IMG/VR virus record: IMGVR_UViG_3300025099_000070
Location: 1-35,379 of that record
Length of the DNA: 35,379 nucleotides
Source: a virus
Reading direction: 5' to 3' (one strand)
The number at the start of each line of letters is the position of its first letter. The first letter of the stretch is position 1. Shown here in pieces: positions 5,386-32,607 of this stretch. Under the pieces are notes generated by a model. It was not told where the DNA came from, did not search any database, and was given only the letters and a program-made list of their open reading frames with translations. The position numbers and the translations under genes are program-made.

Positions 5386-7583
5386 TATTTGTCACTCCTA
5401 ACTGATTGCGCAGCTTTTATTCTTGCCTGCATCGCTTGAGCATATTGTATAATAGTTCTTGTAGTTCCAGTAGGTCCGTCAGACGATCTGTAAGTCTTTC
5501 GACCTAGTTCAATCGGTTCTCCACCTTCTTCTGCGATAACATATGTAAATACAACTTTACCAGTTACAATTCCACCTTTTTCTCCTCCTGGACCATATGT
5601 GAGTTTTTCTTCTTCTTTTACTCTGAATTTATCTTTGAATTCTTGTAAACTGTTTACTCCCAGTGCTGCTCTCAGTGTATCTCTATTAGCTACCGTACCA
5701 CCCATATGAATATCAAATGCATTTGACATTATAGCTTTCAAACGCTTCTTTTGATCTGGTTCATTTGCATCATATTTATTATCATCTAATATATCCAAAT
5801 GGAATCCTTCTGTTACTTCTTGAGCTTCTTCCAGATCTCCTAATGGTGGTGGTCCTGAATCTACTTGATTTAATTTATTCTTACGATCTCTATGTATATC
5901 AACTACTTGATTTCGTCGTTTAGCTAATACTTTTTTTATGTTGATATCATCTGGTGCATCCTTCCCCATTTTTTTAGATAGTTTTTCAGCTATTTTTGAT
6001 ATCACCTTTAGATCGTCTGCTTTTTTTCCATCCGCAAATTTTGCATCATCTGGAGTTGGTGTTTTTATGAATGATCGTATTGCTTGTATCTTCTCTTTAT
6101 TAGACATATTTTGAGGATCTGCACCTTCTGGTATATGAGCTTGGTATTTTGGTTTTAACTGACCCTTGCTATCTAAAAGTGCTTGATCTAAATAGTTCTT
6201 TTTATTTTTTTTCATTTCCGCTTCAAGGACTTCTACTTGTTCATCTAAATCATAATTTTCAAGAGATCCAGCTATTGCAGCAGTTTGGTCATTGTATGTC
6301 GTTTCAATTGCAATCATTTGACTGTTGTGATTTTCTACCACCTTCTGAGCAGCAGCTTTCTTTTCTGGAGATAATGTTGTATTTGCGTCAATTCTTTTCT
6401 CTAAATCAGCCATATCATTACTTAATGTTTTACTACCTTGTGGATCCGATGGATCAGTCTTGTCTGAGTGAAATTGAATCAGTAGAGTTCCATTTTCATC
6501 CATGACAAAGGTTGCTGTATCTGATGGATTAAGCGTTTTACCTGATTCTTGGATCAACAATTCTACATCTTCTTTTCGTAGGGTAGTTCCATCAGGCATT
6601 ATTACTTTTTTAGCATTTGCTACTGCTTTTTTCTGGGCTGCAAGTGATTTGGCTGTACCGTAGAAAGTTTGTGTGTTTTTTGGAGTACCAAAATTACCAC
6701 TTTCTTGTAGATTTGATATTCTTTCTTGTGAAATAGAGTGTTTGTCTTTTGCTGCTCTGGCTACGATTAAACATTTTGAATATGTAGCTATTTGCCGTTC
6801 AGCTAATTTGAATGCTTCTGGATTCTCAGGGTTATCAATAGTACCGCTTCCTTTGGCTTTGTTCCTAGCTTCCCAAAATCTAGCTGGTATATCGTCTTTT
6901 ACTTGTCCTGAATAACTTTGTTCTTGACCTAGTGCAGTTTTACCAAATTCATTATACATCTTATCAGCTAATTCTTCTTCAGACATATCAGGGTTGTTAT
7001 CAAGTATATGCATACCTTCTCCTGATACTATCTCATTGAACGCTGAACCTGCACTTCCAGGTGCTGGCTTCTTAATTTCTCCAGTATATGGATCCTTTAT
7101 CTTATTTTTCTTGTAATATGCTTTTGAGCCTTTATACCCATGTTCTAATACATCATGCTTGTCTTGATTATCTCCATCTTCTAAGTTACCATGAACTCCA
7201 GTTGATGATCTTTTTACTTCAACATCTTTTGGAGCGTCTTTTTCGGGGGTATCGTCATTTTGTTTGCTGGTGGATTTAGATCCTTTGCTGGCTGCTTCTA
7301 TATCTTCTGGTGATGCATTCTTTTTGAGAACATCGTGGATATCTGGATTTATATTTTGTACTGCATACACTCGTCCAGATTCTTTATTCTTAACTAAATG
7401 TTTTGCTTTTTCAGTTAGAAATTCAATCGTTTCTTCTATTACTTGAGTTGGATACTTTTTAGATTGAAGTGTTTCGCGCAATACTCTTAAATCTTGTATG
7501 TTATACGGTTCATCTGCAAATCCGTGTGGATGTAGATAAAACCAATCTTCAATTACTTCATCAATGAGTTGTTTCAAGTTCAT
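5385..7583 (-). CDS. Large low-complexity phage protein, possibly virion-associated
   Basis: 732 aa, very rich in K, D, E, A and N. The N-terminus (1-70, MNLKQLIDEVIEDWFYLHPHG) is helical and looks ordered. Residues about 85-160 are charged and probably disordered. The middle has long helical or coiled segments (VEVLEAEMKKNKKNYLDQ). The C-terminal 130 residues look like a folded domain (FHLDILDDNKYDANEPDQKK; FDIHMGGTVANRDTLRAALG). No enzyme motif is recognised. Its start codon lies inside the end of the PolA-like gene (23-base overlap), so translational coupling is likely. There is only a weak SD. A packaged internal protein or structural protein is possible, but this is inference. Confidence 0.7.
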   Translation of the reverse strand: MNLKQLIDEVIEDWFYLHPHGFADEPYNIQDLRVLRETLQSKKYPTQVIEETIEFLTEKAKHLVKNKESGRVYAVQNINPDIHDVLKKNASPEDIEAASKGSKSTSKQNDDTPEKDAPKDVEVKRSSTGVHGNLEDGDNQDKHDVLEHGYKGSKAYYKKNKIKDPYTGEIKKPAPGSAGSAFNEIVSGEGMHILDNNPDMSEEELADKMYNEFGKTALGQEQSYSGQVKDDIPARFWEARNKAKGSGTIDNPENPEAFKLAERQIATYSKCLIVARAAKDKHSISQERISNLQESGNFGTPKNTQTFYGTAKSLAAQKKAVANAKKVIMPDGTTLRKEDVELLIQESGKTLNPSDTATFVMDENGTLLIQFHSDKTDPSDPQGSKTLSNDMADLEKRIDANTTLSPEKKAAAQKVVENHNSQMIAIETTYNDQTAAIAGSLENYDLDEQVEVLEAEMKKNKKNYLDQALLDSKGQLKPKYQAHIPEGADPQNMSNKEKIQAIRSFIKTPTPDDAKFADGKKADDLKVISKIAEKLSKKMGKDAPDDINIKKVLAKRRNQVVDIHRDRKNKLNQVDSGPPPLGDLEEAQEVTEGFHLDILDDNKYDANEPDQKKRLKAIMSNAFDIHMGGTVANRDTLRAALGVNSLQEFKDKFRVKEEEKLTYGPGGEKGGIVTGKVVFTYVIAEEGGEPIELGRKTYRSSDGPTGTTRTIIQYAQAMQARIKAAQSVRSDK

Positions 7584-8856
7584 ATTTAATGTCCGTCATG
7601 TTATTGTAATTATAGCCATGTTTCACTTTAACTGGAAACTTGATGGAGTCTATTACATCGTTTATAAATATCTGTTCGTCGGACAAATCAAAGTCAAATA
7701 AGAAGGAATCATACGTATATAGCACGAGTTTTGAGCGATATTTCTGCATAACCTTGTAAATTTCCGATAAAATCGAGATGTTATTCTCGGTTTCAAGTGA
7801 TTGGATGTAATAATTGAATAATTTCTGTGGTGTCATACTAGTTAACACATTCTTATACATCGGCCTCTTAAATAAATATGTGGGAATTGAGTTTTCCGTG
7901 TTAAATTCATGCCATAACTTTTTAATCAGCTTATCTACTTTTGCGAAGAATTCAATTTGCAAGAATTCTTTTGGGACTCCACCATATAATATACGAAAAC
8001 TTATTTCTTTAGATTCATTATATTCATCTTTGGTAAGAGTATCTTTTCCAAAATATTGCTTGCCAAGATATTCATGAACTGATCCGGTTGGTAATTCATG
8101 ATCCAACACATCTGCTATTAGTCTTATATGATAAGCATCAAAATCCATCTCTATAAGCTTACCATTTGAAAATCTACTTACAAATCGCTCTCTAGATCCA
8201 TCCTCTTTATTGAGAGCTGCATAATTTATGTTTTGGAATCGATTAGATGGTCTTCCAGTAGTCGTATATGGATTATATTGCGTATATTCGTATCCAGCTT
8301 CGGTATATAATCCTTGCTTCTCGATTTCATGTAATATTGGAATTGTTATATCATTATATGCATTGAAGTATTCGTTCTTTTTAAGATATATATTGGTTAT
8401 TCGTGTCAATTCGTTTTTTATCGATTGTACTTTCTCAAGATGTTTAGATATTGGAATTATTTGATTGGTATCTGATCTATTCCAGAACCTAGATGATATG
8501 AAATCATGAGATGTTGTGTTGTGTTGTTCTAAATCTACCGTCTTACCACACTCGATCCATTCGATCATGTTAATATCTATTAGATTACAATTGAGAAAAT
8601 ACATTACACTTTTCTTATCTATTGTAAATAAAGTTTTATCTGCTAGATGTTTATCTATTATAGTTAAATCTGCTAACCATACTGCCTCTGGGTGGTTGAT
8701 TGGTATTATTTGTATGTCTTCAGATATGAATATCAATAAGCTGATATTGTTGTTCATCGGGTGTTGTATATCGTTACAATATATAGGGATTATGATGGAA
8801 TTATCCAATCCATCCAATGCATCTATCAAAGATTCTTGTGATTCTATTATATTCAT
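7561..8856 (-). CDS. Degenerate family A DNA polymerase-like protein
   Basis: 431 aa. The C-terminal part keeps the PolA palm/fingers order: TTTGRPSNRFQNINYAAL at 198-215 (compare TGRLSS..PNLQNIP), motif A IEMDFDAYHIRLIADVL at 235-251 with Asp238, a motif-B-like KEISFRILYGGVPKEF at 283-298 and motif C LVLYTYDSFLFDFD at 377-390 with Asp383 in YDS instead of HDE. The N-terminal about 110 residues follow the layout of a 3'-5' exonuclease domain, but the DxE metal site is not visible. The thumb is very short. It could be a minimal repair polymerase or a non-polymerising relative. It has its own early-type promoter at 8873-8901. Confidence 0.72.
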   Translation of the reverse strand: MNIIESQESLIDALDGLDNSIIIPIYCNDIQHPMNNNISLLIFISEDIQIIPINHPEAVWLADLTIIDKHLADKTLFTIDKKSVMYFLNCNLIDINMIEWIECGKTVDLEQHNTTSHDFISSRFWNRSDTNQIIPISKHLEKVQSIKNELTRITNIYLKKNEYFNAYNDITIPILHEIEKQGLYTEAGYEYTQYNPYTTTGRPSNRFQNINYAALNKEDGSRERFVSRFSNGKLIEMDFDAYHIRLIADVLDHELPTGSVHEYLGKQYFGKDTLTKDEYNESKEISFRILYGGVPKEFLQIEFFAKVDKLIKKLWHEFNTENSIPTYLFKRPMYKNVLTSMTPQKLFNYYIQSLETENNISILSEIYKVMQKYRSKLVLYTYDSFLFDFDLSDEQIFINDVIDSIKFPVKVKHGYNYNNMTDIKYELETTH

Positions 8857-14661: not shown

Positions 14662-17600
14662 TTATCTCCTACCCAACACACCACCTAGAACTTTTCCAGC
14701 ACCCGAGCTTGCAAATGATCCAGGTCCTCCTCCCATAACTCGATCTAGTAGTGATGGTTTTGGGAATTTACCATCCGCTTTTCCTTCTTTATCAGTAACC
14801 CATGCTCCATCCGCATCCATGAATCCAAACATATCTCCTCCTACTTTTCTATTGGCTGAAGCCATTGATGTGAATCCTAATGTAATATCAATAACCTGAG
14901 GAAGTTGGGCTACTTGTCTACCATCTTTATCGATAGCTTGATTACCCAATGTCCCCTTTGCAACATCCTTTAATTTATTTAGACCTGTGTTTACTAATCC
15001 TGATATTCCACCTTTCATTGCACTATCTAATAGCTGTCCTCCAAGCCCTTGTCTATAGTTATGATCTTCTAGGTTTATATCCCACGGAGCTGAAGTATCG
15101 ACTGTAATGTTAACCGAATCGAAAAATCCTGGTTCATCATTAAACCAATCTCCTAAAGTCAATCCAACGACTGGCCCTTTCATTTGTTGAGTAGCCTCAT
15201 CAATGTGGGGATAACATAAACTAGTTAAATAATTCACCTTTGTCCACATCATCTTTACATCATATCTAGATAAAGCAGCTACTTTAAGGTTAAAACTTAG
15301 TTTTCTATCAGATGCTCCTTCATATAGAAATAAATTATTTGGACGACCTAAATATTTTACACCAGTCCACGTTGCACCTACCGAATCATTTATAGCTGTT
15401 ATGTATGATCTAAATCTTAACGTCTTTTTCCCTATAGGATCTTTGATATAGAATTTTATCAAATCTCCATATTCTTTTTCCATCGCTTTAATGTCTACAC
15501 CAGTGATAGCTTGTTGAGTAATTGCATCTCCTCCATAAGGCTTTGTTTTAGTCGTAGCTTGTCTATAATCTCTACGTGCTAGTCCAGGTCTTCCTTGATT
15601 GTAAGAACCTCCTCTAGATACCAAATTATTTACATCATAATTTGCAATGGTAGATTCTCCATAGAAAGTTGCTAATGGATCATTGATTAACGCTCTAAAG
15701 TCTAAATGTGAAACAGCTCCAGAACTTGCAACTCCATAAGCTACCATCAATCCTGGATATCCAAGAACAGAATAATATCTATTGGCTGTTGTATTACCCG
15801 CTTGAGCTATATTAGTAAATTCAGGGAACCATCCATCTGCTAATGAGCTTCCACCTGAGACTATTCCGAAATGCTCTAAACCTTTATGAAGACCTTGATT
15901 TCCTTGCAAAGTATATGAATTGTGAGTTTCCCATATTCTATAAGTCTTTTTTCGCTTCATCATTTTTTTAAGTTCATCAAAACCTGCTTTTGCAGATGAC
16001 AAATTCTTACCAGATAGAGCTGGGAATGCACTCTCATACCATTTTTCATCTGCTCCTGATTTAATCTTATCTATTATATAGCTTCCGTATGAAGTTCCTT
16101 CGTCTACAGTATTATCTTCAAAATTCTTTTCATATGATTTAGGTTTGTCTCCTAATGGTATTCCATATTGTGTTATACCTGATCCATCGTTGTATAGTTT
16201 AGGTAGTTCATTCTGCATATCACTACTTAATCCTGCAACTCCTGTGATAGTAGTATCCATTCCATACGGTCCTAAACGGTGTATGTATGCACCACCAACT
16301 TGTCCCGTTCTGGCACTTGAGAAATTTTCTTGAAATTCTACTTCATCAGTACCATTTACCAATTGAATATTATTTATCGGTCCAGTTGAGTTTATTGTAA
16401 AAGTTCTAAGAGCCACTGGTGTTAGATGGCTATTTACATCGTATGATATTGCAGTAGGAGTACCTGTATTTGCGGTTGCGAAAGTTGAACCTTGACCGAA
16501 AGCTGATTCAACGATCGATTTATGACTATATCTATTTGATATTCCTGGATGTGTGTATGTGTCGTTTTCAATTCCTAAATACTTGGATCCCTCCTCTCCT
16601 CCACCAAATGTTTGCGACATGTTTGGTGTGAATCCAACCGTATAATGATCGTCTATCAAACTATTACCTAGTTCTATCTGATCAGCTAGAGTTACTACAT
16701 CAGTTGCGACTGTAGGATTAGTTTTCCCAACTTGTTCGTATGTTTTTCCACCAAATAATGGAGTACCAATCGTTTGACTATCTTCCAACGTATCCGTTGT
16801 AAACGAATCTTTTCCACCAGTAATAGTTACTTCTGATATTGGTGTTATCGTGTCTTGTCCATCTACAATAAAAGATTGTACCATATCTAATCCAAATACT
16901 GAAGCGTTATTGGCGTGTAGAGTATCTATATTTCCAGAATGTAATCCTGTAATAGTGATATCACTATATGGTGATGTTGCTGAACTAAGTACTGTGAATG
17001 TTTGTCCTTGATTATTAGATATCGCATTTGTTATTATATCATATCCAAAATTAAATGTTACTGAGTTTGCATCTGTAGCATCGAATGGAATTACATAATT
17101 AAGTGGTGATGGAGTTAGTTGTGATATGTACGTAGCTGGTGCTATGTTTATTGCACTTATATCTTGCAATCTATGCTGTGTGCTTCCATCTGGTTCTATA
17201 AATCCTATAGTATTAAAATCAGTGGTATATTTATTGTTTATTTTATCGTGTATTTCAGTTGTTGCATCGATATGATATCCTACTCTAAATGGTTGATTTA
17301 TCGATGCTATTCCTTGTGATGACCAGTAGTAATTTTCAGGTGCTTGGCCTGTCGAAGTAGATTGTACATTATCAAACGCTAAATTACTAGAAATAGCAGT
17401 GTTGGTTCCAGTCGTTGTATGAATGTGGAATGTTCCAATACCATTTATAGAATTTAATGAAGTTGAATATGATGATGGATTTCCAGTAACATCTAGAAGT
17501 GAAGAATATGGTAATGCTCCACCTGATTTTACAGGTCTTTCTGAGAATGTATGCGAATCCGAATCGTTAATACTAACTAATGATCCATCAGATTTTACTG

Positions 17601-18249
17601 CTTTTCCATATTGATATATTGCTGGAGTAAGATCTCCTTCATTCTGGATTCCGAATGTAGTTGTATTTTCTATTTCTATATGACTTGGAAGTTTATTACC
17701 ATTTCCATCTGTTTTAACTTGATATCCTTCTAGAACAGATTGAATTGGTTCTATATTACTAGTTTCAAATCTACCCTTTAATACTGATATTACTGGATCT
17801 ATTCCACTGACTTCAAATCTTCCATCTGTAGCTATGGTTGGTATTACTATATTAGATTCCTCATTCCTACCTTTTGGATTAGTTTGTTCTGGATCATATG
17901 TGCTGGTTTCATTATTGCCAGATATAGATATTTCATTAACTTTTACTGGGCTGGTTTCAAATCTTCCTTCTAGTGAAGTTTGAGTTATATCAACAGACGC
18001 TAATCTAATTAGTTTAGATTCAAAATTGTCTGTGTATCGTGTTTTTGTGTCGGGTTGATCAAAATTAGTTGGAATTATTGGATTTCCTGCAGGATCTGAT
18101 TTAATTTCTGGTCGTTTGTAAGTTTCTAATTTACCATGGACATCTAGATCAGACATCTCTCTATCCGGTTGTTGGAACCTTCCGGTTGGTTTGGATGGTT
18201 CTTTCTTGAAATAGTCTGATAGATCTGATGTTAAATTTTTAAGTGCCAT
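14662..18249 (-). CDS. Baseplate/tail-tube-cap protein (gp48-like C-terminus) with 16-aa repeats
   Basis: 1195 aa. Residues 77-178 consist of six 16-residue repeats of the type LxGRFETSxxxPxxSV plus a partial unit. A long beta-rich, Ser/Thr/Asn/Gly-rich region follows to about 720. The C-terminal section (about 960-1120) contains KLSFNLKVAALSRYDVKMMW, KVNYLTSLCYP and GPVVGLTLGDWFND, the pattern of the T4 gp48/gp54 tube-cap family. The last residues are Gly-rich. T4 gp48 is about 364 aa, so most of this protein is an added N-terminal region, perhaps forming a fibre or collar around the baseplate. A GTGGGGAA SD precedes the ATG, one base from the tape-measure stop. Confidence 0.65.
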   Translation of the reverse strand: MALKNLTSDLSDYFKKEPSKPTGRFQQPDREMSDLDVHGKLETYKRPEIKSDPAGNPIIPTNFDQPDTKTRYTDNFESKLIRLASVDITQTSLEGRFETSPVKVNEISISGNNETSTYDPEQTNPKGRNEESNIVIPTIATDGRFEVSGIDPVISVLKGRFETSNIEPIQSVLEGYQVKTDGNGNKLPSHIEIENTTTFGIQNEGDLTPAIYQYGKAVKSDGSLVSINDSDSHTFSERPVKSGGALPYSSLLDVTGNPSSYSTSLNSINGIGTFHIHTTTGTNTAISSNLAFDNVQSTSTGQAPENYYWSSQGIASINQPFRVGYHIDATTEIHDKINNKYTTDFNTIGFIEPDGSTQHRLQDISAINIAPATYISQLTPSPLNYVIPFDATDANSVTFNFGYDIITNAISNNQGQTFTVLSSATSPYSDITITGLHSGNIDTLHANNASVFGLDMVQSFIVDGQDTITPISEVTITGGKDSFTTDTLEDSQTIGTPLFGGKTYEQVGKTNPTVATDVVTLADQIELGNSLIDDHYTVGFTPNMSQTFGGGEEGSKYLGIENDTYTHPGISNRYSHKSIVESAFGQGSTFATANTGTPTAISYDVNSHLTPVALRTFTINSTGPINNIQLVNGTDEVEFQENFSSARTGQVGGAYIHRLGPYGMDTTITGVAGLSSDMQNELPKLYNDGSGITQYGIPLGDKPKSYEKNFEDNTVDEGTSYGSYIIDKIKSGADEKWYESAFPALSGKNLSSAKAGFDELKKMMKRKKTYRIWETHNSYTLQGNQGLHKGLEHFGIVSGGSSLADGWFPEFTNIAQAGNTTANRYYSVLGYPGLMVAYGVASSGAVSHLDFRALINDPLATFYGESTIANYDVNNLVSRGGSYNQGRPGLARRDYRQATTKTKPYGGDAITQQAITGVDIKAMEKEYGDLIKFYIKDPIGKKTLRFRSYITAINDSVGATWTGVKYLGRPNNLFLYEGASDRKLSFNLKVAALSRYDVKMMWTKVNYLTSLCYPHIDEATQQMKGPVVGLTLGDWFNDEPGFFDSVNITVDTSAPWDINLEDHNYRQGLGGQLLDSAMKGGISGLVNTGLNKLKDVAKGTLGNQAIDKDGRQVAQLPQVIDITLGFTSMASANRKVGGDMFGFMDADGAWVTDKEGKADGKFPKPSLLDRVMGGGPGSFASSGAGKVLGGVLGRR
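17716..18021 (-). repeat. Six 48-bp coding repeats (16-aa units) in gp48-like gene
   Basis: The translated units are exactly 16 residues each, beginning at residues 77, 93, 109, 125, 141 and 157, with a partial unit at 173. Key residues: Gly at position 3, Arg/Asn at 4, Phe/Asn at 5, Glu at 6, Ser at 8, a hydrophobic residue at 10. GRFETS recurs at residues 95-100 and 159-164, GRFEVS at 143-148. Two or three more units may precede at Gly23, Gly39 and Gly55, also 16 apart but out of register by 8. Confidence 0.75.
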
Positions 18250-20289
18250 TTAGTTCCCCACGTAGCTTTTTGACATAGCGATAGTTTCACCTACTTTCTT
18301 ACCATCCATTATTACTTCACCTGGTTGCGATAACAAATTCGCAATATTATTTAACGCTGTCAGAATAGCTGTATTATCTCCTCCTCCACCTCCTCCTACA
18401 GTAGCATTAGCTTGTCTCAATAAGCCATCTAACTTTGTTCCTCCAATAACTAAATCATCTTTACGGAATTTTTGCATTCTACCGCCACGAGATATGAAAT
18501 CGGCTGCTTCATCATCTGATGCTGATACATCACGAACCATACTGGCTGTGTCTATAGCCATGGATATACCAGTTCCTACTCCTGGAATAAATGATGCTAA
18601 ACCAGAAGCTATTTCCATACCAGCTCCAAGCATATCACCTTTTCTGAATTTAGAAACTGCGAATCCAAAACTTATCAATGCTCCAATAATTGGTACTTTT
18701 TTGAATACCTTTAGAAGTACTGATCCAGCTTTACCAACTGCCTTTGCCGCCATTCCAAACATACCTTTGATTCCTTTTGGGAAAGCTTTCGTAAGTAGTT
18801 TTATCATGCCATCCCAAGTCTTAAATACAAACCTTGCGACGCTGGCAGCTCCAGCACCAACTTTTTCATTGAATGCTGCTATTTGCATTATTAAATTTCC
18901 TAAGAAACTTCCCACTGCTGCGAAGGCGTCAAAGATCTTACCAATATTAGTTTCACCATCAGCTCCTACTACAGTTAACCAATCCCAAACCTGTCCAAGC
19001 CAGCCTACTATTTCTCTAATCGCAGGAGTAAGTTTAGTTACTACAAAGGTTTCAACATCTGCTATCATAGTTGTTGCGTCTTCTGAGCCTAAAAACTTCA
19101 TAAATTTTTGAGCATACGGCATTAGAATATCACCAAGAACTTTTCCTAACCTATGAAGTGTGGCATTTAAGCCTTCCATTGTAGTTGCAATTATTTTTAC
19201 ACCTTTAGCTTGATCCATTTGAGCTTTTGCCATATCTTCAGCTCTTTGTTCTTCTAGATCTGCTTCTTTTTCTCCAGTACCAAGAGCCTTTTTCATCTCT
19301 CCTACAGACATATTAGTAGCTTTTGCTAATGCTTGCTTTTGCACAACATTCATTTTATTGAATTCAGATAATCCACCTACCTGTCTTAACATCTCTTTTG
19401 CAGCTCCTACTTGATCTCCGTCCATAGCTAATTGTCTAGCTTTATCAAAATTAAGAGTTTTACCAGTAAGAACCTGAGCTTCCATTTCTGCTTCTATACT
19501 TGATTCAAAATCTAATAATCCATTAGCTATCTTTGCTGTGGATTCTAATGATAGACCTAAACGTCTGGCTTCTACGGTAGCTTTTACTAATTCTTTAGGA
19601 TTCGATCCTAAGAATCCATGTACATCATCTGATATATTTGCAAGATCATCCATTACCAAGTTAATTGGTACACCTGCTGCATTTGATAAGTCTTTTGCAA
19701 AATTCTGAGCTTGCATTGCCGTCTTTTCAGTGGCACCTTGCGTCAACATAATATTAGACATAATTTTTGCTGATGTATCTTTACCAATACCAGCTCCAAT
19801 GGAGAATCTAGTTATATGATCTGCCATTTGAGCTGTTGCATAATCAACATTACCTAGAGCGTTATTCATTCCTTGAATTGTTTGAATACTACCATCAATG
19901 GATTCACCAAAGTGTCTATACCTTTCATGTAGTCCAGCAACTTGCCTCTGTGCTTCACCGAGATTTTCACCAACTAAACCGGTAGCTCGAGCTGTTGCGG
20001 TCGCTCTAACTTCCCATTCTGTTGCATATTTTAATGATAATGCGAATAGACCAACGAGTCCTTTCATTGGATTCATTATTCCTGCGACAACGGCTCCCCC
20101 CACTGCAGCTAGTTTAGCTCCAATTTCTCCAGATTGATTAACTATGTCTTTTGTCGTCTCAGCTACACTACTCATGGATTTTCCAATGTTATTTTTAACA
20201 CTGGTTCCTGCATTTTTAGCTGCTGCTCCAAATTTCTTAGTGCCCGATACGGCACTAGACATAAATGATTTGAATTTAGATTCTTCCAT
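18250..20289 (-). CDS. Tail tape measure protein
   Basis: 679 aa, close to the 590 aa of T4 gp29. It is helical and Ala/Gly/Lys-rich, with a hydrophobic stretch near 60-90 (AKLAAVGGAVVAGIMNPMKG), long amphipathic helices through 100-400, and hydrophobic helices near 540-600 (VPIIGALISFGFAVSKF; GLASFIPGVGTGISMAID). A G6 run precedes a helical C-terminus. It lies directly after the gp26-like/gp51-like pair, which is the normal position of a tape measure after its chaperones. A GCGGAG SD and a GATATTTATA box lie within 30 bases of the ATG, so it probably has its own late promoter. It sets tail length and is ejected ahead of the DNA. Confidence 0.85.
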   Translation of the reverse strand: MEESKFKSFMSSAVSGTKKFGAAAKNAGTSVKNNIGKSMSSVAETTKDIVNQSGEIGAKLAAVGGAVVAGIMNPMKGLVGLFALSLKYATEWEVRATATARATGLVGENLGEAQRQVAGLHERYRHFGESIDGSIQTIQGMNNALGNVDYATAQMADHITRFSIGAGIGKDTSAKIMSNIMLTQGATEKTAMQAQNFAKDLSNAAGVPINLVMDDLANISDDVHGFLGSNPKELVKATVEARRLGLSLESTAKIANGLLDFESSIEAEMEAQVLTGKTLNFDKARQLAMDGDQVGAAKEMLRQVGGLSEFNKMNVVQKQALAKATNMSVGEMKKALGTGEKEADLEEQRAEDMAKAQMDQAKGVKIIATTMEGLNATLHRLGKVLGDILMPYAQKFMKFLGSEDATTMIADVETFVVTKLTPAIREIVGWLGQVWDWLTVVGADGETNIGKIFDAFAAVGSFLGNLIMQIAAFNEKVGAGAASVARFVFKTWDGMIKLLTKAFPKGIKGMFGMAAKAVGKAGSVLLKVFKKVPIIGALISFGFAVSKFRKGDMLGAGMEIASGLASFIPGVGTGISMAIDTASMVRDVSASDDEAADFISRGGRMQKFRKDDLVIGGTKLDGLLRQANATVGGGGGGDNTAILTALNNIANLLSQPGEVIMDGKKVGETIAMSKSYVGN

Positions 20290-21566: not shown

Positions 21567-22055
21567 TTAGAATTGTAGTATTGCGTAGTCGTATTTCAAT
21601 GTTAATGAGATTGACATTGGATCTTGAGTTGACCAATCCATTTCACCAAATCCTGCTTCTCCGATGTAAGCACCTTTTAGTGTCCATTCTTCAACTTTAT
21701 CACCTACTGGTCCTAGCATGTTAAAAGTTACATCTTTTTTATAAAAATCTGAATATCCTGCTCTACCTGTTACCGATTCGTGGTGTAATCTAACCCACTC
21801 CATTACAGCTTGTGCAGCTGATGGAACAACCGGATCATATAATTCTACAGTTACATCTGACCACGTCGCTTTACCTTTAATTTTTCTTTGTACGTTGATG
21901 TGATCTAATACAACCTCTTCAAATGTTACCGTAGGTCTTGATGCTTTCTTTACAAGATAAGCTGGGATACCTTCAATAAACATAATGAACCTATTCGCAA
22001 CCTTTGGTTCAAAGGGTGTAAAGAATATTTCATTTGAGTCTAATAATTGTGCCAT
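21567..22055 (-). CDS. gp19: Tail tube protein (T4 gp19-like)
   Basis: 162 aa, the same size as T4 gp19 (163). Begins MAQLLDSNEIFFTPFEPKVA followed by NRFIMFIEGIPAYLVKKASR, the typical start of the T4-type tube beta-barrel. Later come WSDVTVELYDPVVPSAAQAV, EWTLKGAYIGEAGFGEMDWS and the closing SISLTLKYDYAILQF. Monomers stack as hexameric rings inside the sheath. It has its own GATATTTATA box, a strong AGAGGAG SD, and a strong terminator after it, so it should form a monocistronic late transcript. Confidence 0.93.
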   Translation of the reverse strand: MAQLLDSNEIFFTPFEPKVANRFIMFIEGIPAYLVKKASRPTVTFEEVVLDHINVQRKIKGKATWSDVTVELYDPVVPSAAQAVMEWVRLHHESVTGRAGYSDFYKKDVTFNMLGPVGDKVEEWTLKGAYIGEAGFGEMDWSTQDPMSISLTLKYDYAILQF

Positions 22056-25361: not shown

Positions 25362-27077
25362 TCAAATTGCTACAATATCATCTGCTGACATGTTAATCAT
25401 AGTTCCATCAAAGTAAGTCGTAAATGATGGATGTGCAGTATGTACATCTTTGATCGTTGGGAAAGACCAGGTTCCGCTAGGATCGCCCATTCTCCAATAT
25501 CCTCGTAATGATGCACTACTGTCATAGAGTCCATTATTAGATGTAAGATCAAATGGAACTTTATTATTATAGATTGCTTCTATTTCATCTGCAGATAGTA
25601 CGTCATTCCATATAGCAACTTCATCCAACTGGCCAGCGAATGGCGATTCAACAGAAGTAGAAGAAGCCCAATCACCTCCTAACATTACTTGCGCAGATGC
25701 ATTAAGATAAGATATATCAGCTCCAGCTGCTGCTTGGCCTTGACCTATTAGTACTCCATTCATGTATAATGCGTGCACTCCTGTTGCCTTTTGATAACTC
25801 ATAGCAAAGTGATGCCATCCATTACTATCAGCTAAAGCTGTGGAGTATCCGTTTACATCAAATTGACTGTCAAGTGCTAGGGTACCTATAGTATGTAGAT
25901 ATCCGCCTGATCCCGCACCAGTATCCGTTACTCGTATATCACTGGAAACTTTGATGGCATCACCTAGAGCCCAACTTCCTCTGAGCTCTATCTTCCATCC
26001 TCCAGTTGAAACACATCCTATCGGTACAACTATCTGATGTTGGCCAAGTCCGCTCCAATCTGCCAGTTTTGCCCAAATAGAATATGTCAGATTATCAGTA
26101 GGTTTTATTAGTGCATTATTTCCGAGATTTATACAATCATCTACTCCATCAAATTCTACTGCATAATTATTCTCGAATACAACTTCTTCCGGTATTGTGG
26201 TTGGAGGACTTTCCTCAATTTCAATTAACTGACCACCTTGTTCAACTACAGCCCTAGTATTAAATACCGTTTGTACTGGTCCGAATGTTTTTACTTCTTG
26301 ATCTGCAAGAGCTTTATTCATAGAATCTGGAATTATGTATCCTTCCATACTAATGGTAAATGCTGTTCTGACTGTTCTATCTACATCTGCTGCTAATTCT
26401 GTTTCCGATGAGAAATCTTCAACTAACGCTCTAAACTTAAATTTTTCTGGATCTCCCCAATATGAATCTTCTGCATAGTTTATAGATTCAACTATTTTAT
26501 TCATTTGCTCTACATATTCTGTCCATATAATACATTCATACGTTAATGTGACGAAATCTGGTATTACGACGTTATAATTTTCAGTGCTTGGTTTTATATC
26601 ATTTAATACTGCGAAGTTATCATATCTGTTTCTATTATTGTATTGTTTTTGAAATGTATAGTGAAAGTGTGGGTTATTAGCATCTAATTTGTTACTTAAA
26701 TTTCTATTCTTTGCAACACTTGTTCTTCTATAAACAATCGCAGGTATTTGCAGTTTTCCTTGTTGATCTCTAAGATATCCATTTTCTTGTACAGATACCC
26801 ATCTTTCTGGTGATCCGTATATCATTGGTACTTTTACGTATTCATCGCCATCATCTACCGTCGGTTGAATTATATTATCAAAATAATATTGAATACATTC
26901 ATCTATATCATACAGACCTAGATAATAATTCTTAACAGTATCATCCCGTTTTACTTGATCACCACGGTTAGTTGCAATATTAGATTGAGGTGCACCTGTT
27001 AACTTATTTAGAGGGTCAGTTCCCGTCACTACAGCTCCCATAGCTGATCCTCTTATTTCTCTCTTTCGATCTGACAT
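25362..27077 (-). CDS. Tail connector/completion protein fused to a LamG domain
   Basis: 571 aa in two parts. Residues 1-255 (YYLGLYDIDECIQYYFDNII; VPMIYGSPERWVSVQENGYL; NYNVVIPDFVTLTYECIIWT) look like the tail-completion/sheath-stabiliser protein encoded beside gp14 in T4-like phages; gp15 is the closest guess. After a linker of about 45 residues, 304-545 is a concanavalin/LamG fold: AVEFDGVDDCINLGN, LTYSIWAKL, GWHHFAMSYQKATGVHALYM, and FAGQLDEVAIWNDVLSADEI. LamG domains bind glycans or proteins, so this adds a probable surface decoration at the neck. The ATG overlaps the stop of the neck gene. Confidence 0.7.
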   Translation of the reverse strand: MSDRKREIRGSAMGAVVTGTDPLNKLTGAPQSNIATNRGDQVKRDDTVKNYYLGLYDIDECIQYYFDNIIQPTVDDGDEYVKVPMIYGSPERWVSVQENGYLRDQQGKLQIPAIVYRRTSVAKNRNLSNKLDANNPHFHYTFQKQYNNRNRYDNFAVLNDIKPSTENYNVVIPDFVTLTYECIIWTEYVEQMNKIVESINYAEDSYWGDPEKFKFRALVEDFSSETELAADVDRTVRTAFTISMEGYIIPDSMNKALADQEVKTFGPVQTVFNTRAVVEQGGQLIEIEESPPTTIPEEVVFENNYAVEFDGVDDCINLGNNALIKPTDNLTYSIWAKLADWSGLGQHQIVVPIGCVSTGGWKIELRGSWALGDAIKVSSDIRVTDTGAGSGGYLHTIGTLALDSQFDVNGYSTALADSNGWHHFAMSYQKATGVHALYMNGVLIGQGQAAAGADISYLNASAQVMLGGDWASSTSVESPFAGQLDEVAIWNDVLSADEIEAIYNNKVPFDLTSNNGLYDSSASLRGYWRMGDPSGTWSFPTIKDVHTAHPSFTTYFDGTMINMSADDIVAI

Positions 27078-31470: not shown

Positions 31471-32607
31471 TTATTTTATCAATCCAGCTAGTTTCTTAAA
31501 CCTATCAGCCATTACATTACCTTCGTTAAGAGGTGTTGCTTTAGCAGCAGGTTTTGTTGATTTTGAAGGTTTTGATGCTAAACCTTCTGTAATTTTTTTA
31601 ACTTTCTTCGTCGCTTTTGCATCGTATTTAAGCGATTCAGCTAATGTAGAGTAAACTAATTTTACTTCTCTAACTGATCCCGCTCTATCAAAAGTTTCGA
31701 TCACTCTTAGTTTTTGACCTTCGTCAAGACCATTATTTCTAAACAATTTGTTTGTAAATAATAGTTTAGCGTTTAGCAAATTAACTTCAGAAAGTTTATC
31801 TTTCATAAATCTGATAGTAGCATACGCTTCTTTCAGTTTTTTAGTTTCTTCTGCCACTGGAGACTCAGGTTGTTCTACTGATTCACCTGCTTCACCGTCA
31901 TCTACACCAGCAGTATACTGGTCTTCTGATAATGATTTGATGATTTCTTCTAGATCAACTGGTTCTTCTTCGCCTTCTTCTGCATTCTCAGAAATCTTGT
32001 CCATGTTTTCGTCTTCAGATCCCATGGTGTTTCCAGGTGAAGTTTCAGTCTCTGCTTTTTCTTCATCATCGCCGTCAGCTACAACAACTTTATTGTCGCC
32101 GTTACCAACACCTGATGAATCAGATTGTTCTGCTACTGGTTCTTCATCTTCCATTTCTTCTTCAGTTCCCATTTCATCTTCAAGTTCTCTAATGATTGCT
32201 TCAAGTTCCATATCGTCTGCAGGAGCTTCTTCTTCTTCAGCCGCATCCATTTCCGGTGCCATTTCTTCACCTTCTTCTTCAGCTGCGTCCATTGCTGGAG
32301 CTTCCATTTCTTCTTCTTCAGCAGTTTCCATTTCTTCATCTTCGTGGCCTTCTTCATCACCAGTAGACATTTCCATTTCTTCTCCTTCGTAAGTCCCTTC
32401 TTCTTCAGAATCTAAAGCTGGTTCAGCTACTGGTTCTTCAACCGGTACATCTTCAACTTCCTCTTCTTCTTCTTCACGGATTTTTGCAGATAACATAGAT
32501 TGAAGTTTTGGCGTAAACGCTTCTTCAAGAGCTAGTTTTGCGTTTGCTATAGCAGTTTCTCTAACAGCTTTAGCATCAGCGATTGCTTCTTTTAGTAATT
32601 TGTCCAT
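31471..32607 (-). CDS. gp22: Prohead core/scaffold protein (T4 gp22-like)
   Basis: 378 aa. The helical N-terminus (MDKLLKEAIADAKAVRETAI) precedes a long Glu/Asp/Met-rich low-complexity region (about 45-250), with MDAAEEE occurring twice and many LxE-type sites that gp21 could digest. The C-terminal helical domain (LKEAYATIRFMKDKLSEVNL; NAKLLFTNKLFRNNGLDEGQ) is the conserved gp22 part that binds gp23. It builds the core on which the capsid forms and is then degraded. It has a leader of about 120 bases with three hairpins and a TATTTATA box. TATAGGAG precedes the ATG. Confidence 0.85.
   Translation of the reverse strand: MDKLLKEAIADAKAVRETAIANAKLALEEAFTPKLQSMLSAKIREEEEEEVEDVPVEEPVAEPALDSEEEGTYEGEEMEMSTGDEEGHEDEEMETAEEEEMEAPAMDAAEEEGEEMAPEMDAAEEEEAPADDMELEAIIRELEDEMGTEEEMEDEEPVAEQSDSSGVGNGDNKVVVADGDDEEKAETETSPGNTMGSEDENMDKISENAEEGEEEPVDLEEIIKSLSEDQYTAGVDDGEAGESVEQPESPVAEETKKLKEAYATIRFMKDKLSEVNLLNAKLLFTNKLFRNNGLDEGQKLRVIETFDRAGSVREVKLVYSTLAESLKYDAKATKKVKKITEGLASKPSKSTKPAAKATPLNEGNVMADRFKKLAGLIK

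Follow-up and report, generated by a model that had tools for sequence, protein, structure and literature searches.

The window, a 35,379-nucleotide stretch of viral DNA from IMG/VR record IMGVR_UViG_3300025099_000070, carries on its minus strand a series of tail genes in which the sheath, the tube, a hub-like protein, the tape measure protein (TMP), a tube initiator, a LysM protein, and a large ORF follow one another, and the same order is found in the other neighborhoods listed. The TMP is homologous to the annotated TMP of Flavobacterium phage immuto (E = 7.4e-16), and the tubes found in relatives match the tube of the window in 96 of 96 cases. The features of the region are collected in Table 1.

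Table 1. Tail genes of the window and subdivisions of the initiator ORF.
Feature	Position	Strand	Basis
LysM baseplate wedge (gp53-like), 100 aa	14356..14658	-	phrog_7145, E 1.6e-12
Tube-initiator (gp48-like) ORF, 1195 aa, with N-terminal repeat arm	14662..18249	-	ORF and fold
Tail-tube-like initiator domain (predicted), residues 909-1140	14830..15525	-	AF2 and VIA
Variable middle region, residues 191-908	15526..17679	-	L002 comparison of residues 191-740
Main 16-residue set, Gly95-Gly175 (residues 95-190), last unit partial	17680..17967	-	
Degenerate spacer, residues 71-94, half-period register break	17968..18039	-	
First 16-residue unit set, Gly23/39/55 (residues 23-70)	18040..18183	-	
Conserved N-terminal tip motif, residues 1-20, MALKNLTSDLSDYF...	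18190..18249	-	18/20 identical to L002
TMP, 679 aa, directly upstream of the arm gene	18250..20289	-	homology, synteny
Tail tube protein, 162 aa, proposed partner of the units	21567..22055	-	phrog_4542, E 1.5e-29
Tail sheath, 866 aa	22099..24699	-	phrog_23, E 3.4e-68

The initiator ORF begins with a repeat array, first noticed at 17716-18021 (residues 77-178) and found here to keep a 16-residue period over residues 23-190. Residues 1-200 give 34 self-identities at lag 16, against 11.8 expected, with 29 at lag 32 and 20 at lag 48, and across lags 3 to 49 none of 5000 shuffles scores as high as 34; the repeat is real. Glycines 95, 111, 127, 143, 159, and 175 mark a main set with a spacing of exactly 16, and glycines 23, 39, and 55 mark an earlier set of the same exact spacing, which, as the initial annotation had noted, is out of register with the main one, the offset being 40 residues or 2.5 periods. 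Its count of six perfect units is slightly generous, in that five are clear (GRFETSPV.., GNNETSTY.., GRNEESNI.., GRFEVSGI.., and GRFETSNI..), the unit preceding Gly95 is degenerate, and the Gly175 unit is partial. Likewise, the repeats are exact in register but not in sequence, with any two units of the array identical at 4-10 of 16 residues, which marks them as old. All units are kept in a relative that is 64% identical overall (L002). Between the two proteins, residues 21-190 are identical at 131 of 170 positions with zero indels (54 synonymous and 39 non-synonymous codon differences), and residues 191-740 at 267 of 536 (50%) with 27 indel columns (119 synonymous and 269 non-synonymous differences). 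By this comparison, the array is under constraint and better conserved than the middle of the protein. The tip that precedes it has a form common to relatives with and without arrays: MALKDLKSDLSKFR, MALLDLSSDLSRYR, and MPLLDLKTNLKSLKYG.

In the AlphaFold2 (AF2) model, residues 909-1140 have pLDDT values of ~75-90 across most of the core. This model superimposes on the T4 baseplate-tube chain 5iv5_BE, presumably gp48, with a VIA Z of 11.2 and an rmsd of 3.4 over 144 residues, and on the corresponding chains of P1 (9ay5_G), PVC (6j0n_b), and AFP (6rao_G) with Z scores of 12.2, 11.1, and 10.9; the best Foldseek match is 9qgl_7A (E = 6.4e-6). As modeled, the C-terminal domain folds like tail-tube initiators, and the original label "gp48-like" is right as a description of fold. 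Sequence profiles do not bear the label out: PHROGs and Pfam scans assign no family to the initiator or its relatives, and PDB sequence profile searches with the initiator return nothing useful and no named initiator family. The known tail-tube initiators (T4 gp48, the Pvc5/Afp5 type, P1, and Mu gp43) share the tube-like C-terminal fold, with VIA Z scores of 10.7-12.2 in the best rows, and their genes likewise lie beside those of the TMP, a LysM wedge protein, and the hub. The Mu initiator is described in the excerpted text of PMC11915804 as a hexamer with a tube-like barrel.

The arm, by comparison with the core, is predicted to be disordered over residues 1-200, with block-mean pLDDT values of ~30-56 and almost no secondary structure over residues 1-180, and five consecutive 44-residue units of a relative also adopt no predicted fold (mean pLDDT 33.8). 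The initial annotation had suggested structure prediction of this region and had offered two readings, a β-helix or fiber stem, and a row of binding sites for a repeated partner at the baseplate. In the monomer predictions that were run, which are of low confidence, no regular β structure is seen over either the 16-mers or the 44-mers, and the first reading is therefore unsupported. The strict register speaks for a fiber, and periodic arrays can form fibers, but with no predicted fold in either unit type and no reason for the unit-by-unit match to TMP length described below, a fiber stem at the baseplate is most improbable, as is a disordered brush that sticks to the host. The second reading fits much better, except that, on the evidence, the sites would lie along the tail, at about one unit per tube ring, and not at the baseplate. 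The possibility that the arm is itself a tape measure protein was rejected, as no helices are predicted apart from residues 11-14 and a separate, homologous TMP gene is present.

Relatives were collected with a profile of the C-terminal domain (68 viral loci) and with class-specific profiles (64 and 80 loci) in overlapping scans; out of 269 ORF hits, 195 have a complete TMP, and these reduce to 127 unique initiator-TMP pairs. With full-length queries, scans recovered only the window's own virus and L002; the two-member C terminus brought in just one further relative, which is repeat-free, and a scan of genome contigs found no relative. The homologue in phage RM378 is short, and no repeat is seen on reading its sequence. 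A periodic array is present in 75 of the 127 pairs and absent from 52. Where present, it sits after the N-terminal tip and before the rest of the protein, and the unit varies: 15 residues (EKFLGETTPxxMDNS type), 16 (the window), 17 (LR756508), 16 plus 21 (L270), or 44. The 44-mer class has many members, among them Microcystis phage Mel-JY01, a cultured isolate with a named host, unlike the window virus. Its protein WWT39329.1, annotated as hypothetical, has a homologous C terminus, the same gene order, and a TMP of 1348 residues, with ~20 detected units of 44 residues in place of the 16-residue units of the window; the name Mel-JY01 gave no match in a literature search of open PMC papers.

The initiator gene lies directly downstream of the TMP gene in all 75 array-bearing records, with a gap of -1 to 80 nucleotides. 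A gap of at least 240 nucleotides is found in 33 of the 52 repeat-free relatives (L018, L092, and L033, for example), compared with 0 of 75, and in 32 of these 33 it holds a predicted Pro/Gly/Asn-rich ORF of 67-189 residues, which may take the place of the arm as a separate protein. The gap ORF of L033 has 189 residues and, by eye, about four 37-residue repeats. Since array-free relatives with the same tube family exist (52/127), the arm is dispensable in general. The 16-mer class of the window itself consists of two viruses with the same array and TMPs of 679 and 682 residues; it offers no length variation, and the window takes the explanation of its array from the relatives.

Comparison of repeat number among related phages, also put forward in the initial annotation, shows that the number varies and tracks TMP length, a match foreseen by neither of its readings. 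Disorder together with a unit length that is not conserved had been named there as grounds against those readings; disorder is indeed predicted and the unit length is 15, 16, 17, 37, or 44 by class, but it is the number of units that follows the TMP. Throughout, TMP length is used as a stand-in for tail length. In the 15-mer class, 37 members reduced to 29 non-redundant viruses, the correlation of unit number with TMP length is r = 0.94, and phylogenetic contrasts give r = 0.91 (N = 28, p = 1.3e-11). Linear correlation with TMP length is not significant for the part of the protein that follows the array (r = 0.26, p = 0.18) or for the hub (r = 0.23, p = 0.26; 25 of the 29 viruses), the rank correlations of both controls being weakly positive (0.39 and 0.42, p ~0.035). 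In a further control, the gp48 length of 49 repeat-free relatives does not correlate with TMP length (r = 0.21, p = 0.15). The fit in this class is TMP = 296 + 1.819(±0.108) × array end, a slope of 27.3 ± 1.6 TMP residues per 15-mer, or ~41 Å at 1.5 Å per residue; when detected 15-mers are counted instead, the slope is 34.1 ± 2.4. The 15-mer model is not clearly improved by including linker length or GF units.

In the 44-mer class, the 44-mers are preceded by a zone that in several members is itself periodic, at 16 or 34 residues. Singly, the 44-mer count (R2 0.48) and the preceding zone (R2 0.26) are weak predictors, so both are needed: in 34 viruses, TMP = 360 + 22.2(±0.8) per 44-mer + 1.365(±0.059) per residue of the preceding zone, with an R2 of 0.969, and with an R2 of 0.94 on 29 contrasts. 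With missing 44-mers filled into long gaps, the R2 drops to 0.960 and the slope becomes 19.5 ± 0.9. The 44-mer coefficient minus 16 times the zone coefficient is 0.36 ± 1.03, that is, one 44-mer equals one 16-mer equals ~22 TMP residues. A division of the 44-mer into 15 + 15 + 14 residues, which would give three rings per unit, was dropped, as one 44-mer behaves as one 16-mer. Raw residue length of the arm was also rejected as the ruler, with an R2 of 0.545 in this class against 0.969 for unit count. Four irregular records (L253, L255, L256, and L257), first excluded, then used as a held-out test, and then included, have initiators of 2837-2984 residues with long irregular inserts between 44-mers and spacings of up to 109. 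Their unit number fits the TMP; when held out, TMP length is predicted with an error of 16-23 residues by unit count and ~100-185 by residue count. It is units that count, not residues, in the match to TMP length, with fewer TMP residues per unit in the 44-mer class (22.2 ± 0.8) than in the 15-mer class (27.3 ± 1.6). When the five unit types are pooled, 67 viruses in all, the correlation of unit number with TMP length is r = 0.99, a value that uses a 15.5-residue unit taken from the fitted ratio and array ends set by eye for the window, L002, L095, and L270. Because this value is partly between-class and rests on a fitted unit length, more weight is given to the tests within classes and within pairs.

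Pairs of sister viruses vary the two genes in small steps. The initiators of L219 and L222 are identical at 893 of 895 residues, with two substitutions, and the second has exactly one more 15-mer; its TMP has been swapped for one that is 24 residues longer (682 to 706) and 41% identical, the tubes are 100% identical, the sheaths 95.7%, and the hub and everything downstream are shared (96.7-100% per ORF). Between L141 and L143, two 16-mers are lost and two 44-mers gained, with TMPs of 1183 and 1188 residues; between L144 and L147, 47 residues, or three 16-mer units, are lost and three 44-mers gained, with TMPs of 1293 and 1289. One 44-mer gained between L260 and L268 is accompanied by 21 more TMP residues. 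Some close pairs depart from this pattern: L199 and L232 differ by one unit with a TMP change of -2, and L174 and L069 have no unit difference and TMPs that are 38 residues apart. Shared ancestry, or a drift in gene length that lengthens both genes without any physical link, would produce some correlation, and the pooled r is indeed inflated because array length and TMP length both differ between the two big classes. However, the relation persists in the tree contrasts of both classes, the rest of gp48 and the hub do not follow the TMP linearly to a significant degree, and 16-mers and 44-mers are exchanged in compensating numbers at constant TMP length. This explanation is largely excluded by these tests and is very improbable.

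The spacing per unit points to the rings of the tail. Phage tube rings are 38.5-42.8 Å high in the excerpted text of PMC8718954, and that of PMC5099701, citing Katsura, gives 0.15 nm of tail per TMP residue for TP901-1. At 1.5 Å per residue, 22-27 TMP residues per unit correspond to 33-41 Å, close to a ring of ~40 Å, which suggests that the number of units is the number of rings spanned. Counted from residue 1, the units per predicted ring range from 0.59 (the window) to 1.07 on the calibration excerpted for TP901-1. A 15-mer, from its chain length, would not be able to span two rings. The array is likely to form a flexible arm on the tube initiator that is matched to the tail at about one unit per tube ring, whatever the unit length (15, 16, 17, or 44). 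One arm would extend from each subunit of a presumably hexameric initiator and run up the tail, and each unit may dock on one tube subunit, as the 33-41 Å spacing and the match in unit count would suggest. If the units dock in this way up the tail, the conserved tip would come to lie near the end of the tail closest to the head. Such an arm could brace the tube, act as a second ruler with the TMP, or both.

Of the candidate partners, the tube is the most likely: it stays unchanged where the TMP has been swapped (L219/L222, the cleanest pair), and all 96 tubes are homologous. Binding to the TMP, with units docked on successive stretches of it inside the lumen, could be read from the adjacency of the two genes in 75 of 75 array-bearing records and from the tracking of TMP length, which follows from the construction of the test. 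In the L219/L222 pair, however, once the additional unit is set aside, the arms are 99.8% identical and the tubes 100% identical, alongside TMPs of 41% identity; a dependence of the arm on TMP sequence is hence hard to see, and the TMP is an unlikely partner. An arm laid along the sheath, on its inner face or outer surface with one unit per sheath ring, would give the same counts, since T4 has 138 copies each of sheath and tube according to the excerpted text of PMC3004832, and with equal ring numbers the correlation cannot separate the two partners. In the L219/L222 pair, the sheath is 95.7% identical. With T4-like radii and dimensions, however, the ring step on the outer surface is ~54 Å along the helix and 15 fully extended residues reach ~52 Å, so an outer path would be barely possible, and sheath rings collapse on contraction. 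A course along the sheath is quite doubtful.

Phage tails reach an exact length, and the usual explanation names only the tape measure protein. The proposed arm resembles the tape measure proteins (T4 gp29, lambda gpH, and TP901-1 TMP) in that their length is likewise matched to tail length. It differs in being a second protein, anchored to the initiator, not predicted to be helical, matched by unit count, and accompanied by a separate TMP gene. In TP901-1, repeated elements of the TMP influence tail length, according to the excerpted text of PMC5099701. No initiator repeat arm matched to tail length was found in a search of open PMC papers or in excerpts from them. A further likeness to the arm lies outside phages. 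On muscle thin filaments, nebulin is a modular chain anchored at one filament end, with one module per subunit and a module number matched to filament length. The match of module number to length is shared (pooled r = 0.99 in 67 viruses, with TMP length as proxy); the arm differs in belonging to a bacterial virus tail and in having modules of 15-44 residues, and no sequence relation is expected. A more far-reaching form of the proposal gives the contractile tails of this large group of phages two matched rulers, in which six arms would run the full tail beside the TMP with one unit per tube subunit, the tip would signal or cap the last ring, and length would be counted in rings by unit number, as by nebulin on actin; TMP and arm would then have to co-evolve. 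This form is a real possibility, if somewhat short of an even chance.

If the arm is as proposed, tails would contain a second chain that is part of the initiator and matches TMP length in units, not residues; a tail component of this kind would be new and well suited to counting rings. Natural experiments are at hand in the TMP swap with one extra unit and in the exchanges of 16-mers for 44-mers. The proposal would also explain the puzzling, very long, repetitive "hypothetical proteins" of these phages.

Other minus-strand genes of the window include one at 25362-27077 for a tail terminator-like protein with a weak match to T4 gp15 (phrog_347). Residues 310-499 of this protein match the lectin-like domain Laminin_G_3 (E = 8.2e-18), which could decorate the neck and bind sugars there. 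The interval 31471-32607, flanked by the protease and major capsid genes, encodes a very acidic, Glu/Asp-rich protein of 378 residues that, by position only, is probably a prohead core or scaffold protein. By eye, the 431-residue product of 7561-8856 resembles part of a DNA polymerase A, and Pfam gives only a weak, unrelated match. A longer IMG/VR record of 62,289 bases (L001) matches the window with 99.96% identity over 15,585 bases, so that more of the same virus is available.
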